Below, piece by piece: positions 1,529-13,799 of a stretch of 22,594 nucleotides of DNA. Within the stretch, counting starts at the first letter, position 1. The number at the start of each line of letters is the position of its first letter. Source of the DNA: a virus; IMG/VR virus record IMGVR_UViG_3300034272_000253, positions 1 to 22,594 of that record. The stretch is one strand, 5' to 3'. The position numbers were made by a program, and so were the translations under genes. The notes under the pieces are model-generated. The model was given only the letters and a program-made list of their open reading frames with translations, did not search any database and was not told the DNA's origin.

Positions 1529-1705
1529 ATGAAAAAGGACATTCCAAATCTCCCTGCATCTTCCAAGTTGCAACCACCTTCAGGTGGAGGTCCATCAATT
1601 AAAAATGCATTGAAGGCAAAGCCTTTGGCTATGTCAGGTGGCGTACCTTCTAAAGGTGCTAAGTCTGTAGTAGGTAAAAGCAAACCTAAACTAGGAAAGA
1701 AATGA
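1529..1705 (+). CDS. 58-residue Pro/Gly/Lys-rich protein
   Basis: A short gene of 58 codons plus stop. The protein begins MKKDIPNLPASSKLQPPSGG and ends in a basic tail SVVGKSKPKLGKK. It is low-complexity, probably unstructured and strongly basic, with no recognised family. Support comes from an A-rich leader (AAAACAAAAACAAAA) directly before the ATG, typical of Bacteroidota translation starts, and from a 4-base overlap of its TGA with the ATG of the next gene. Confidence 0.7.
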   Translation: MKKDIPNLPASSKLQPPSGGGPSIKNALKAKPLAMSGGVPSKGAKSVVGKSKPKLGKK

Positions 1706-1980
1706 TGAAGGGTAAAAATACAGGCGGAACAGGAAGCCGTAGAATCGATAGAGCAAAAGGCAAAGTCGAAAAAGCTGAAAAAAAGGCTTCTAAATTAGGA
1801 GTAGATTTTATTGGTAAAGAATTTGGAATTAATATTCCTATTAAGCCAACAAAAACAACTCCTAAAGTAGATAAAGCTCTTTCTAAAATAGACAAGGCTA
1901 AAGATAAATTGCAAAATGTTGCAGGCAAAGTAGTGTCTAAAATTGAAAAGAAAGCTATTAAACAATTAAAAAAGAAGTAA
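1702..1980 (+). CDS. Lys-rich protein with repeated helical units
   Basis: A 92-residue, very basic protein. Two Lys/Ala-rich helical segments flank a hydrophobic centre: RIDRAKGKVEKAEKKASKLG near the N-terminus and ALSKIDKAKDKLQNVAGKV toward the C-terminus, joined by FIGKEFGINIPIKPTK. The two segments share an IDxAKxK core, which suggests an internal duplication. It ends KKAIKQLKKK. It starts in an ATGA overlap with the previous gene (a second ATG follows at once) and is followed 2 bases later by the next gene. It has no enzyme motif. The composition resembles histone H1-like or nucleoid proteins, so nucleic-acid binding is plausible but not shown. Confidence 0.75.
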   Translation: MMKGKNTGGTGSRRIDRAKGKVEKAEKKASKLGVDFIGKEFGINIPIKPTKTTPKVDKALSKIDKAKDKLQNVAGKVVSKIEKKAIKQLKKK

Positions 1981-1982
1981 TC

Positions 1983-2189
1983 ATGGCACCAATGTATGGC
2001 GGAGGTGGTTCAGGTAAAGCTTCTGATAGAAGAGAAGCTAGAGCTGCAAAGAAGATTGAAAAGTTAGATACTAGAATAGCTAAGAAAGCTTTGAAATCTT
2101 CTAATCCGATTTCTGCACTTGAAAAAGGATTAACCAAGTTTGAAAAGAAATCTCAAAAAATCACAGACCGTTACAATAAAAAGAAATAA
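1983..2189 (+). CDS. MAxMYGGGG paralogue 1 (68 aa)
   Basis: A 68-residue basic protein and the first of three adjacent genes sharing the N-terminal signature M-A-x-M-Y-G-G-G-G. Here it reads MAPMYGGGGSGKASDRREAR, followed by a Lys/Ala-rich helix (AAKKIEKLDTRIAKKALK) and a basic end ITDRYNKKK. It lies 2 bases after the previous stop, in the TAATCATGG junction that recurs through this block. The shared start and similar charge pattern indicate descent from a common gene by tandem duplication. Function is unknown. The glycine-rich head followed by a basic helical tail could suit a virion-internal or DNA-associated protein. Confidence 0.8.
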   Translation: MAPMYGGGGSGKASDRREARAAKKIEKLDTRIAKKALKSSNPISALEKGLTKFEKKSQKITDRYNKKK

Positions 2190-2191
2190 TC

Positions 2192-2240
2192 ATGGCAACA
2201 ATGTATGGTGGCGGAGGCGGCAAGGTCGCTAGAGCCGAAA
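2192..2240 (+). repeat. Direct repeat, copy A (5' ends of paralogues 2 and 3)
   Basis: These 49 bases at the start of paralogue 2 match 2482-2530 at 46 of 49 positions. The differences change ACA to GCA (Thr/Ala), GGC to GGT (silent) and GTC to GCC (Val/Ala). The spacing of 290 bases equals one gene plus its junction, as expected from tandem gene duplication. Confidence 0.9.
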
Positions 2241-2479
2241 AAAGAGAAAATAAAAAAGTAGCAAAGGAAGCAGCAAAAACTGTTAAGTCAGTTGTTAAAT
2301 CTATGGCTGAAAAACCAAGTAAGTCTTCAAGCACTTCAGGTTCAAAGCCTATGGTAAGAGACCTATCTTCACTTGACAAGTTTGATAAAAGAATTAAATT
2401 GCGTCAGGTCCCAAAAGAAGATAAAGCTTCTGCAAAAGCTTACAATCAAAGGCTTAAAGAAAAAAGAAAAGGAAAGTAA
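2192..2479 (+). CDS. MAxMYGGGG paralogue 2 (95 aa)
   Basis: A 95-residue, highly basic member of the MAxMYGGGG family: head MATMYGGGGGKVARAEKREN, then a Lys/Val/Ala-rich helix, a Ser/Thr-rich linker (KPSKSSSTSGSKP) and a second basic helical part ending RLKEKRKGK. The first 49 bases match the start of the next gene at 46 positions, which shows recent duplication or conversion. It sits 2 bases after the preceding gene. Function is not recognised. Confidence 0.8.
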   Translation: MATMYGGGGGKVARAEKRENKKVAKEAAKTVKSVVKSMAEKPSKSSSTSGSKPMVRDLSSLDKFDKRIKLRQVPKEDKASAKAYNQRLKEKRKGK

Positions 2480-2481
2480 TA

Positions 2482-2530
2482 ATGGCAGCAATGTATGGTG
2501 GTGGAGGCGGCAAGGCCGCTAGAGCCGAAA
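2482..2530 (+). repeat. Direct repeat, copy B
   Basis: Second copy of the 49-base repeat, covering the MAAMYGGGGG start of paralogue 3. A more diverged third version (similar only in the Met-Tyr-Gly-Gly codons) begins paralogue 1 at 1983. Confidence 0.9.
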
Positions 2531-2868
2531 AGAAAGAAGCTAAAAAAGAGCTTAAAGAAACTAGACAGATGATTAAAGCAGTATCTGCAAGAACTCCTGC
2601 CGTTAGAAAAGCTGAAAGAGCTATTGATAAAAGAGTTAAAGAAAACAAAAAAGAAAATAAGTCTTTTATGAAAGCTGCAGAAAAAGAGTATAAGTCATCA
2701 CTAAAATCATCTCCTAAACCTGCAAAAGAAAAGGGAATCAGCTTGAAAGAGAGAGCAGATAAAATGGCTGCGAATAAAGGAAGACTAGCTCAACTTGATG
2801 TTGTTTCAATTCCTTTGAAGCCTAGTGCTAGAAGAGAGATGATTAAAAATCAAAGAAAAGGAAAATAA
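2482..2868 (+). CDS. MAxMYGGGG paralogue 3 (128 aa)
   Basis: The longest member of the family at 128 residues. It has the head MAAMYGGGGGKAARAEKKEA, long Lys/Glu/Ala-rich helices (about residues 15-75), then a more hydrophobic part GRLAQLDVVSIPLKP (about 100-114) and a basic tail MIKNQRKGK. The tail resembles the RKGK end of paralogue 2, so the similarity is at both ends. Start and spacing are as in its neighbours. Function is unknown; a nucleic-acid or virion-core role is only a guess from charge. Confidence 0.8.
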   Translation: MAAMYGGGGGKAARAEKKEAKKELKETRQMIKAVSARTPAVRKAERAIDKRVKENKKENKSFMKAAEKEYKSSLKSSPKPAKEKGISLKERADKMAANKGRLAQLDVVSIPLKPSARREMIKNQRKGK

Positions 2869-2870
2869 TC

Positions 2871-3122
2871 ATGGCAGCAATTAAAAGCAAAGGCCCCGGT
2901 GACAAGGTTTCTAGACTTGTAAATAAAGCAGCAAAAGCTGTTGGAAAATTTGAAAAGGCTAAATCAGAAGCTAAAGGAAGTTTTAGTAACAAAGTTGTTA
3001 GGCTTGCAGGCAAAGCAGGTAAAGCTATTGGTAAATCTGAAAAAGCTAGAGGTCCTATTAAAACAGAATCTGCAAGACAACCTATGGGTCAAATTCAAAG
3101 AAAAGACGCTAAATATAAATAA
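2871..3122 (+). CDS. Lys/Ala-rich protein with two ~29-residue repeats
   Basis: An 83-residue, strongly basic protein. It contains two copies of a helical unit: KVSRLVNKAAKAVGKFEKAK (residues 12-31) and KVVRLAGKAGKAIGKSEKAR (41-60), a period of 29 residues. These KAxKAxGK-type helices resemble histone H1 and other DNA-compacting tails by composition only. The start MAAI and the TAATCATGG junction match the preceding MAxMYGGGG genes, but the glycine head is replaced by KSKGPGD. The + frame used here is preferred over an overlapping +1-frame reading because of the start context and spacing. Function is unknown. Confidence 0.78.
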   Translation: MAAIKSKGPGDKVSRLVNKAAKAVGKFEKAKSEAKGSFSNKVVRLAGKAGKAIGKSEKARGPIKTESARQPMGQIQRKDAKYK

Positions 3123-5323: not shown

Positions 5324-5461
5324 ATGGCAAAAGCTAAAACTATGACCGTAAGTACCTTTGTTAAGAAACACAAGAGCAAAGGTGTAGCAGCTAAGAACAG
5401 CACTAGCTCTAGCAAGGGCAGTAAGCTATATAAGAAGCCATATAGAGGACAGGGGAGATGA
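5324..5461 (+). CDS. 45-residue basic protein ending KPYRGQGR
   Basis: A short gene of 45 codons plus stop, 1 base after the previous stop, with an ATGA overlap to the holin. The protein is MAKAKTMTVSTFVKKHKSKG, then a Ser/Lys-rich linker and KLYKKPYRGQGR. The KPYRGQG end is familiar from other small phage genes. No function is recognised. Its basic composition resembles the block at 1237-4819. Confidence 0.68.
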   Translation: MAKAKTMTVSTFVKKHKSKGVAAKNSTSSSKGSKLYKKPYRGQGR

Positions 5462-5889
5462 AATACATTCATTACATATTCGCCTCTATACTTCTTTTAT
5501 TTGCTCCGATATACGGGCTATTGATAGCCGTAGCTGCAGCAATTACCCTTGATACACTTACGGGAATATTTAAGTCAATCAAACTAAATGGATTCAAAAG
5601 TATTCGTAGCAGAAAGCTTTCAAACGTGGTAAGCAAAATGCTGCTTTATGAGATATGTGTTCTCTTTCTTTTTTTGATGGACAAGTATCTTTTGAATGAA
5701 TTTGTGGTTAAGAGCTTTGGCATTGAGTTCATGTTCACCAAAATCTGTGCTATTGTTCTAATCTTCATTGAGCTAGTATCAATCAAAGAAAACGTAGAGG
5801 ATTCGTTTAGCATTGAGATTTGGCCAATGATAAAGAAGTTGTTAAGCAGAGCGAAAGAATTTAAATCTGACATTGACGAAATAAAATGA
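5458..5889 (+). CDS. Holin, phage_holin_4-like
   Basis: A 143-residue integral membrane protein. Hydrophobic segments lie at about 5-31 (long enough for two spans), 61-79 (MLLYEICVLFLFLMDKYLL) and 92-108 (MFTKICAIVLIFIELVSI). An LDTLTGIFKS turn (31-40) and SIRSRKLSNVVSKM (48-61) are typical of the holin 4 family, which has DxxTG after the second span and an SxKLxxxxxKM segment. The C-terminus after IKENVEDSF is cytoplasmic and charged. It would assemble in the inner membrane and trigger lysis. It is coupled by ATGA overlap to the lipoprotein/spanin gene behind it, so they form a lysis cassette. No endolysin is next to it. Confidence 0.8.
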   Translation: MKYIHYIFASILLLFAPIYGLLIAVAAAITLDTLTGIFKSIKLNGFKSIRSRKLSNVVSKMLLYEICVLFLFLMDKYLLNEFVVKSFGIEFMFTKICAIVLIFIELVSIKENVEDSFSIEIWPMIKKLLSRAKEFKSDIDEIK

Positions 5890-6419
5890 AGAATCGAAAG
5901 CAGCATTTAAAAGCTCTTGCGTTTCTTTTCCTAATCACTTTAGTCTACTCGTGTTCAAGTAAAAAGCTAACAGTATCTAAAGACGTTAGTAAAGAAAAAG
6001 TTGATAGCGCATACGTAGAGAAGAAGGACAGCACAGCGTTTGTTCAGAAAGGCGTGACTGTAACTGAAAAATTTTTTGAGATTCAGATTGAGCCTGTCGA
6101 TGTCTCAAAGCCAATAATTGTTGATGGAGTTAAGTACGAGAATGCCTATTTAAAAATTAAGAAGGCAGATAAATCTATTGTAGATACTACAAAGACAGTT
6201 GTTTCTGAGGAAGTGGAGAAGGAAGTTCAGCTAGAGAAAGAAACAGAAGAAAAGAAATTTGATAAGGCATTAGTAAAGAAATCAAGTAATTATCTATATT
6301 TTTGGTTATTAGGTATTTTTCTCATCTTGTATTTAGCATACAAGCTTCGAAGGCTAATACCAAATCCATATTCAATTATTCGTTATATTTGTCAAACACT
6401 TAAAAATCAAATCAAATGA
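5886..6419 (+). CDS. Candidate unimolecular spanin (lipoprotein with C-terminal TM)
   Basis: A 177-residue protein with a signal peptide and lipobox (LVYSC, Cys at 23), a Lys/Glu/Val-rich periplasmic part of about 110 residues with beta-prone and coiled-coil stretches (EEVEKEVQLEKETEEKKF, about 108-125), and a C-terminal membrane helix at about 135-152 (YLYFWLLGIFLILYLAYK) followed by a basic tail. This is the arrangement of a u-spanin such as T1 gp11: lipid anchor in the outer membrane, helix in the inner membrane, joining both in the last step of lysis. The residues after Cys (SSKKL) do not look like a surface-export signal. It overlaps the holin by ATGA, which supports the call. The alternative is a generic membrane-anchored lipoprotein. 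Confidence 0.68.
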   Translation: MKNRKQHLKALAFLFLITLVYSCSSKKLTVSKDVSKEKVDSAYVEKKDSTAFVQKGVTVTEKFFEIQIEPVDVSKPIIVDGVKYENAYLKIKKADKSIVDTTKTVVSEEVEKEVQLEKETEEKKFDKALVKKSSNYLYFWLLGIFLILYLAYKLRRLIPNPYSIIRYICQTLKNQIK

Positions 6420-12763: not shown

Positions 12764-13326
12764 TGAAATCCCCATTTTACTTTATTGCCAAGCCCGTTGA
12801 TGGAAAGAGGTATGCAAATACCAAAGAGATAGCAGGAGTAGAATTAATAGTCAGCACATCTGAAGAGGACCACAAGTTCTCAAACAGATTTGCTGAGGTG
12901 GTAGAAACACCTCTAGGATATAAAGGTCCAATTGAACCCGGAGACATTTTACTTGTACACCACAATGTGTTCAAGTTTTACAATGATATGAAGGGCCGTC
13001 AAAAAAGCGGTCGTTCTTTTTTTAAGGACGATTTATTTTTTATAGAGACTGAGCAGTTCTATATGTTCAAGAAGAACAATGTTTGGAATTCATACAGCAG
13101 GTATTGCTTTGTCAAACCAATTAAAACAACAGATAGCTACATCAAGAAGCCTTTTACTGAAGAGCCTCTAATGGGGATTATGAAGTACCCTAACGAGTAC
13201 CTCTTATCACAAGGCATTAAAGAAGGTGACCTAGTTTGTTTTAGTCCTGACAGCGAATATGAGTTTACTGTTGACGATGAGAAGCTGTATCGAATGTATG
13301 ACCACCAAATAACAATCAAATTATGA
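12763..13326 (+). CDS. Protein with two GroES-like barrels
   Basis: A 187-residue protein; the ATG at 12763 overlaps the previous stop by 1 base (TAATG). The frame continues upstream but would overlap most of that gene's end. Residues about 5-105 and 112-187 look like two copies of one fold. PFYFIAKPV and RYCFVKPI begin the copies. GPIEPGDILLVHHNVFKFYN (55-74) and GIKEGDLVCF (151-160) match the GroES VKVGDxVLF strand. The last part, EYEFTVDDEKLYRMYDHQIT (165-184), follows the GroES C-terminal pattern GxEVxxDGExYLIMxExDIL. The protein may be a divergent co-chaperonin or a structural protein using the same barrel. The family is known to me as a phage hypothetical; the fold call is my inference. 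Confidence 0.7.
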   Translation: MKSPFYFIAKPVDGKRYANTKEIAGVELIVSTSEEDHKFSNRFAEVVETPLGYKGPIEPGDILLVHHNVFKFYNDMKGRQKSGRSFFKDDLFFIETEQFYMFKKNNVWNSYSRYCFVKPIKTTDSYIKKPFTEEPLMGIMKYPNEYLLSQGIKEGDLVCFSPDSEYEFTVDDEKLYRMYDHQITIKL

Positions 13327-13799
13327 ATCTACTTGTAGTCGAAGATGTATTAAAATATCCAAATGAATATGTATCAGACATTCACCTACACGGATTTGAA
13401 GACTTGGCAGACGGAGAACACGTATTCAGAAACATACAACCTCGTGGGAATAACGATGACTTTGCCAAACTTGTCCTTGAACTATTTCCTGATTACGGGA
13501 TAGCATTTAACTTTGTAAGGAAGTCACCATTAAATCAAGAGGAGCCAAATTTTATCCATAGTGATGAGATGATGGGTGACATTACTTGTATATTGTATCT
13601 CAATGAGATGTCTCCTGTTGAAGACGGTACTACAATATATGATGACGAAAAGAATCCTTCAGTAAAAATTTATTCGAAGTACAATAGAATGGTTGCATTT
13701 GATTCAGATGTGTTGCATTCTAGAAATATATTTGAAAACTTTGGTGAAGGAGATACATCTAGATTGATTCAAGTAATTTTCTTAAAGGCTAAGGAATGA
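13323..13799 (+). CDS. 2-oxoglutarate/Fe(II)-dependent oxygenase-like protein
   Basis: A 158-residue cupin-fold enzyme candidate. The iron-binding triad is visible as H79 and D81 in FIHSDEMMGDITCILYLN (78-94), and H132 in AFDSDVLHSRN (125-135), with R147 in DTSRLIQVIFL as the likely 2-oxoglutarate anchor. Spacing fits the HxD...H...R pattern of prolyl- and lysyl-hydroxylase-like oxygenases. Such enzymes hydroxylate proteins or small molecules and use 2-oxoglutarate and oxygen. The substrate is unknown; nearby proteins such as the fibre or barrel protein are possible only by position. It is translationally coupled by ATGA overlap to both neighbours. It is smaller than most family members but holds all key residues. 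Confidence 0.85.
   Translation: MNLLVVEDVLKYPNEYVSDIHLHGFEDLADGEHVFRNIQPRGNNDDFAKLVLELFPDYGIAFNFVRKSPLNQEEPNFIHSDEMMGDITCILYLNEMSPVEDGTTIYDDEKNPSVKIYSKYNRMVAFDSDVLHSRNIFENFGEGDTSRLIQVIFLKAKE

Follow-up and report, generated by a model that had tools for sequence, protein, structure and literature searches.

A probable unimolecular spanin of the phi12:1/FCL-2 family directly follows the holin in a flavobacterial phage fragment

Unimolecular spanins (u-spanins) of Bacteroidota phages are known chiefly from bioinformatics. Kongari et al. 2018 (PMC6139136, Table 5) catalogued 58 u-spanins, including those of phi12:1, phi17:1, phi18:1, FCL-2, 11b and RAP44, which split into 13 separate sequence families with FCL-2 as a singleton. 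Putative u-spanins were annotated in the Cellulophaga phages Ingeline and Nekkels in a 2021 study (PMC8776804), and according to a 2025 survey Bacteroidetes phages use only u-spanins (PMC12596118). Even in T1 these proteins have received little study, and in the literature we found no experimental test of a u-spanin from a Bacteroidota phage, including any member of the family described here. Three arrangements are relevant for comparison. In phage T1, the u-spanin gp11 closes a holin–endolysin–spanin cassette (gp13-gp12-gp11), and Cellulophaga phi12:1 has the order holin (gp62), endolysin (gp63) and gp64, a homologue of the protein studied here. In the FCL-2/FCV-1 type, found in Flavobacterium columnare phages, the corresponding gene follows an M15 peptidase by a few genes and is upstream of head genes.

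We analysed a 22,594-base IMG/VR virus record (hereafter the window), a fragment without closed ends, for which a holin gene followed by a coupled u-spanin gene had been proposed. The holin gene (5458–5889, + strand) was confirmed: it encodes 143 aa with three hydrophobic segments and matches PF05105 (Phage_holin_4_1) with 40.9 bits (E 2.4e-10), exceeding the curated cut-off of 22.2. The candidate u-spanin gene (5886–6419, + strand; 177 aa) begins within it, its start overlapping the holin stop by 4 nt (ATGA). The encoded protein opens with MKNRKQHLKALAFLFLITLVYSC, and later come a charged linker, a single hydrophobic helix and a tail that is basic. Residues 1–22 (5886–5951) are a predicted signal peptide, in which a basic start (MKNRKQHLK) is followed by a hydrophobic core and AlphaFold places a helix at 3–22. 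The lipobox LVYSC (residues 19–23; 5940–5954) was found in the sequence and by a rule-based scan. It has Tyr at −2, which is not in the standard consensus, and the putative lipidated C23 is followed by SSKKL at +2 to +6. From this Cys, the predicted mature periplasmic linker (residues 23–135; 5952–6290) extends for 113 residues to a transmembrane helix predicted at residues 136–157 (6291–6356) both by hydropathy and by AlphaFold. The remaining residues, 158–177 (6357–6416), form a predicted cytoplasmic tail with an AlphaFold helix at 161–176. Besides C23, the only Cys is residue 169 in the tail, leaving none in the periplasmic part. The features expected by the original prediction (lipobox, C-terminal membrane helix and a linker of ∼110 residues) were thus all located, and the signal peptide and membrane predictions that it proposed as a check were made with the rule-based scan, hydropathy and AlphaFold. 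The full AlphaFold model gives the order helix, beta linker, helix, helix, with linker strands at 52–70, 76–79, 82–85 and 87–105 that have low confidence (pLDDT about 40–65). Because the model is poor overall (mean pLDDT 62, pTM 0.27), a beta-rich linker, which would recall the beta-rich periplasmic domain typical of the T1 family, is only tentatively indicated. The best matches in a fold-library search were phage lipoproteins, one of them from phi17:1.

A scan of IMG/VR with the single window spanin protein returned no relatives, and the spanin alignment is too variable for pattern scans. Therefore, the holin was used as bait, which identified 80 IMG/VR loci with holins 63–92% identical to that of the window. 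Profile searches of these loci, the window and two phage records detected the u-spanin family in 67 sequences, and 55 non-identical members were aligned. Mean column identity was 41% in the spanin alignment and 79% in the holin alignment, the two being built from different sets of sequences. C23, K27 and N86 are invariant among the 55 members and P70, Y84 and W140 nearly so; P70, Y84 and N86 belong to a conserved core in the linker, PVDVSKPIIVDGVKYENAYLKIKK (residues ∼70–94; 6093–6167, + strand). The distance from Cys to helix is 103–119 residues in every aligned member. Tails of 5–11 residues are commonest in the family, and those of 23–25 residues occur only in the window and in loci L001–L003 and L005, which share a long amphipathic tail of the LLPNPYSIISYICRTLKN type (6357–6416 in the window). 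About 15 members (L030, L033, L040, L046, L052, L072 and others) have one periplasmic Cys near the conserved core; there are no periplasmic cysteines in the 58 u-spanins of Kongari et al. 2018 (PMC6139136). Searches of Pfam, NCBIfam and PDB sequences with the family gave no meaningful match. The window ORF itself matches phrog_5885 (E 6.9e-12), which is annotated as 'unknown function'.

The layout of the window protein is not a product of chance. In the window and the 80 related loci, we scanned ATG-initiated ORFs of ≥90 aa for a basic start, a hydrophobic core, a lipobox within 36 residues and exactly one helix near the C-terminus. This layout was present in 61 of 63 full-length family members and in none of 746 unrelated ORFs, two of which had a lipobox alone. 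No other window ORF of 70 aa or longer has a lipobox, and slightly looser rules applied to 12 kb of phage T1 picked gp11 and no other ORF. The same results bear on a reading in which the protein would be an outer-membrane lipoprotein of o-spanin type, paired with a separate i-spanin, its C-terminal hydrophobic stretch being incidental. Although two-component spanins are the commoner type, the C-terminal helix is kept in those 61 of 63 relatives with W140 near-invariant, and the window has no type II membrane ORF that overlaps the candidate or adjoins it. A search for a partner around 5886–6419 found no + strand ORF of at least 25 aa with an N-terminal membrane helix, the holin excepted. We consider an o-spanin assignment very improbable.

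The u-spanin assignment is reinforced by similarity to catalogued proteins. By tblastn, the window protein matches Cellulophaga phi12:1 with 42.2% identity over residues 8–93, or 49% of the query (E 7e-5), placing it just over the threshold for membership of a u-spanin family (a minimum of 40% identity across 40% of the length; PMC6139136). In agreement, a family profile built without them matched phi12:1 gp64 (E 3.9e-14) and the FCV-1 protein (E 1.1e-9). The phi12:1-type u-spanins, a SpaninDB family from the Cellulophaga phages phi12:1, phi17:1 and phi18:1, share with the window protein a C-G/A/S-x-R/K-K motif, the core motif and the C-terminal helix; they differ in that gp64 follows both holin and endolysin, whereas the window gene lacks an intervening endolysin and encodes a longer tail. 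The FCL-2/FCV-1 type has the same layout and motif, but its gene is not beside this holin and its direct pairwise similarity to the window protein is weak (E 0.04). Ingeline and Nekkels also have predicted u-spanins in flavobacterial phages, here likened to the window protein by description only. T1 gp11 resembles the window protein in its lipobox and single C-terminal helix, with a linker of about 86 residues versus 113. Homology to gp11 was considered and rejected, as hhalign gave a probability of 9% over 13 columns around the lipobox only. The likeness to T1 that had been proposed therefore holds for layout and gene order and fails for sequence relationship. Since the window protein just reaches the family threshold with phi12:1, and its kin were catalogued as u-spanins in 2018 (PMC6139136), the family was already known by bioinformatics, and the earlier view that such lysis genes are poorly described does not apply to it. 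The central proposal, that this Bacteroidota (flavobacterial) phage encodes a u-spanin, is upheld, with the layout, the setting in a lysis cassette and the homology to catalogued proteins of this kind all in agreement: ORF 5886–6419 very probably encodes a u-spanin of the phi12:1/FCL-2 family.

Relative to the holin, the gene occupies a consistent place. In 66 of the 70 loci that carry both, holin and spanin are separated by a further gene. Among these 66 slot proteins, Pfam recognised M15_4 (28), M15_3 (24), Phage_lysozyme (9), DUF5675 (1), Muramidase (1) and Amidase_2 (1), so up to 64 of 66 are recognised or likely peptidoglycan hydrolases from six Pfam families; the DUF5675 protein is included as a presumptive endolysin from its position alone. 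At one locus (L043:5435–6930), two genes separate holin and spanin, and the second (339 aa) is probably the metallophosphoesterase that the Pfam scan of slot proteins also returned. The holin–endolysin–spanin order is also found in Flavobacterium genome contigs, including that of the isolate F. urumqiense, and the T1 cassette has a matching order with unrelated proteins. Thus, a conserved holin and a spanin-like protein flank interchangeable endolysins, and because the gene keeps its place after endolysins of varied type, a lysis gene is the best interpretation of it. This bears on another reading, that of a phage lipoprotein with an effect on the host envelope, for example in superinfection exclusion, which lies in the late region by coincidence. 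One of the 55 members does weakly match the Cor exclusion family (E 0.0054), but this is one among many matches at chance level. The position after holin and endolysin is also fixed in these 66 loci while the endolysin family varies, and such a role would not need a C-terminal anchor in the inner membrane. We give this exclusion role very little credence.

A role as u-spanin would involve the following steps. The signal peptide would export the chain and signal peptidase II, acting at the lipobox, would leave a lipidated C23, while the C-terminal helix would remain embedded in the inner membrane, leaving the tail on the cytoplasmic side. The linker of 113 residues, which may be rich in beta strands, would span the periplasm, restrained by the peptidoglycan mesh. 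After opening of the inner membrane by the holin and degradation of the wall by an endolysin, the linker would be freed and could collapse, drawing the two membranes towards each other and breaking up the outer one. This collapse-and-fusion step is borrowed from the u-spanin model in PMC6139136, and for the window protein we infer lipidation, outer-membrane location, topology, collapse and fusion alike. The predicted topology follows from an exported N-terminus and a single later helix, which would place the C-terminus in the cytoplasm. Net charge is nearly equal on the two sides of the helix (family mean +2.7 before and +2.9 after; +2 and +4 in the window), so positive-inside counting adds no support for the topology. 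None of the 37 distinct mature N-termini has D at +2 or any acidic residue at +2 to +6, and the Bacteroidetes surface-export signal C-X-K-(D/E)2 is absent after the Cys; hence, neither a retention nor a surface-export signal is seen.

The window and L001–L003 are the only loci (4/70) in which holin and spanin are directly adjacent. In the window, the empty endolysin slot corresponds to the 4-nt overlap itself (5886–5889, + strand). The coupled holin/u-spanin pair of the original prediction is accordingly real in the window, where the genes adjoin and overlap, but it is an exception, with an endolysin normally in between. No endolysin was recognised in the 22.6-kb window by searches for M15_3, M15_4 and Amidase_2 or by a Pfam scan of 29 of its ORFs, and the lack of an endolysin neighbour counts against the u-spanin assignment. 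The endolysin of this phage must either be encoded beyond the ends of the fragment or represent a family that is not recognised. A location elsewhere is plausible, since a related 56-kb contig (L016/G007), whose holin is accompanied by neither a slot gene nor a spanin, has an Amidase_2 gene ∼6 kb upstream of the holin. Judged by terminase, the closest complete genome is MW202828 (79.5% identity), which has an M15 peptidase and is without this holin or spanin family, and for this reason gives no indication of where the window's endolysin is. L016 (and G007, 56.5 kb), L017 and L022 keep the holin (74–78% identity) and lack any member of the spanin family. A search for a lipobox ORF across the whole 56-kb G007 contig found none, and these are apparently spanin-less phages.

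The long tail adds a second point on the empty slot. L005 has both the long tail and an endolysin gene still in place, so the tail probably predates the loss of the endolysin. One possible scenario for the window and L001–L003 is that the endolysin was lost from between holin and u-spanin, that holin and spanin are now translated from overlapping genes, that lysis proceeds through an endolysin whose gene lies elsewhere or whose type is unrecognised, and that the longer amphipathic cytoplasmic tail couples the spanin to the holin to some extent; we regard this combination as unlikely. The window reading frame has a dN/dS of ∼0.18 against both L001 and L002, with dS near 1.4 and thus close to saturation, and judged by these substitutions it is under purifying selection. 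That the gene is real but now a decaying or non-functional lysis remnant, its endolysin gone from the cassette, would fit the empty slot in the window and L001–L003 but is scarcely credible, as all four have kept the ORF, the lipobox and the helix intact and dN/dS is this low.

Other features of the window were also recorded. Positions 2–742 encode the end of a chaperonin-like protein, to which longer ORFs of GroEL type in relatives can be aligned, as well as GroES (Cpn10); GroEL/GroES are also present in podovirus relatives. Just upstream of the terminase region is a 2OG-Fe(II) oxygenase-like gene (13323–13799; E 2.8e-5, below the Pfam cut-off). At 1702–3122, several small basic proteins encoded in a row begin almost identically (MYGGGGGK..., MAAMYGGGGGKAARAEKKE...) and apparently represent a duplicated gene series. 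On the related contig G007, L102:69–800 matches the crAssvirus muzzle C-terminal domain PF25729 (E 2.7e-18), which suggests that this podovirus group is related to crAss-like phages.

The empty endolysin slot is the sole oddity of an otherwise ordinary find, and the family leaves the picture of how lysis works unchanged. More than 60 family sequences (55 aligned) show a near-fixed linker length and a conserved core beside interchangeable endolysins. The family helps to annotate lysis genes now listed as 'hypothetical protein' (phrog_5885) and to choose residues to test.
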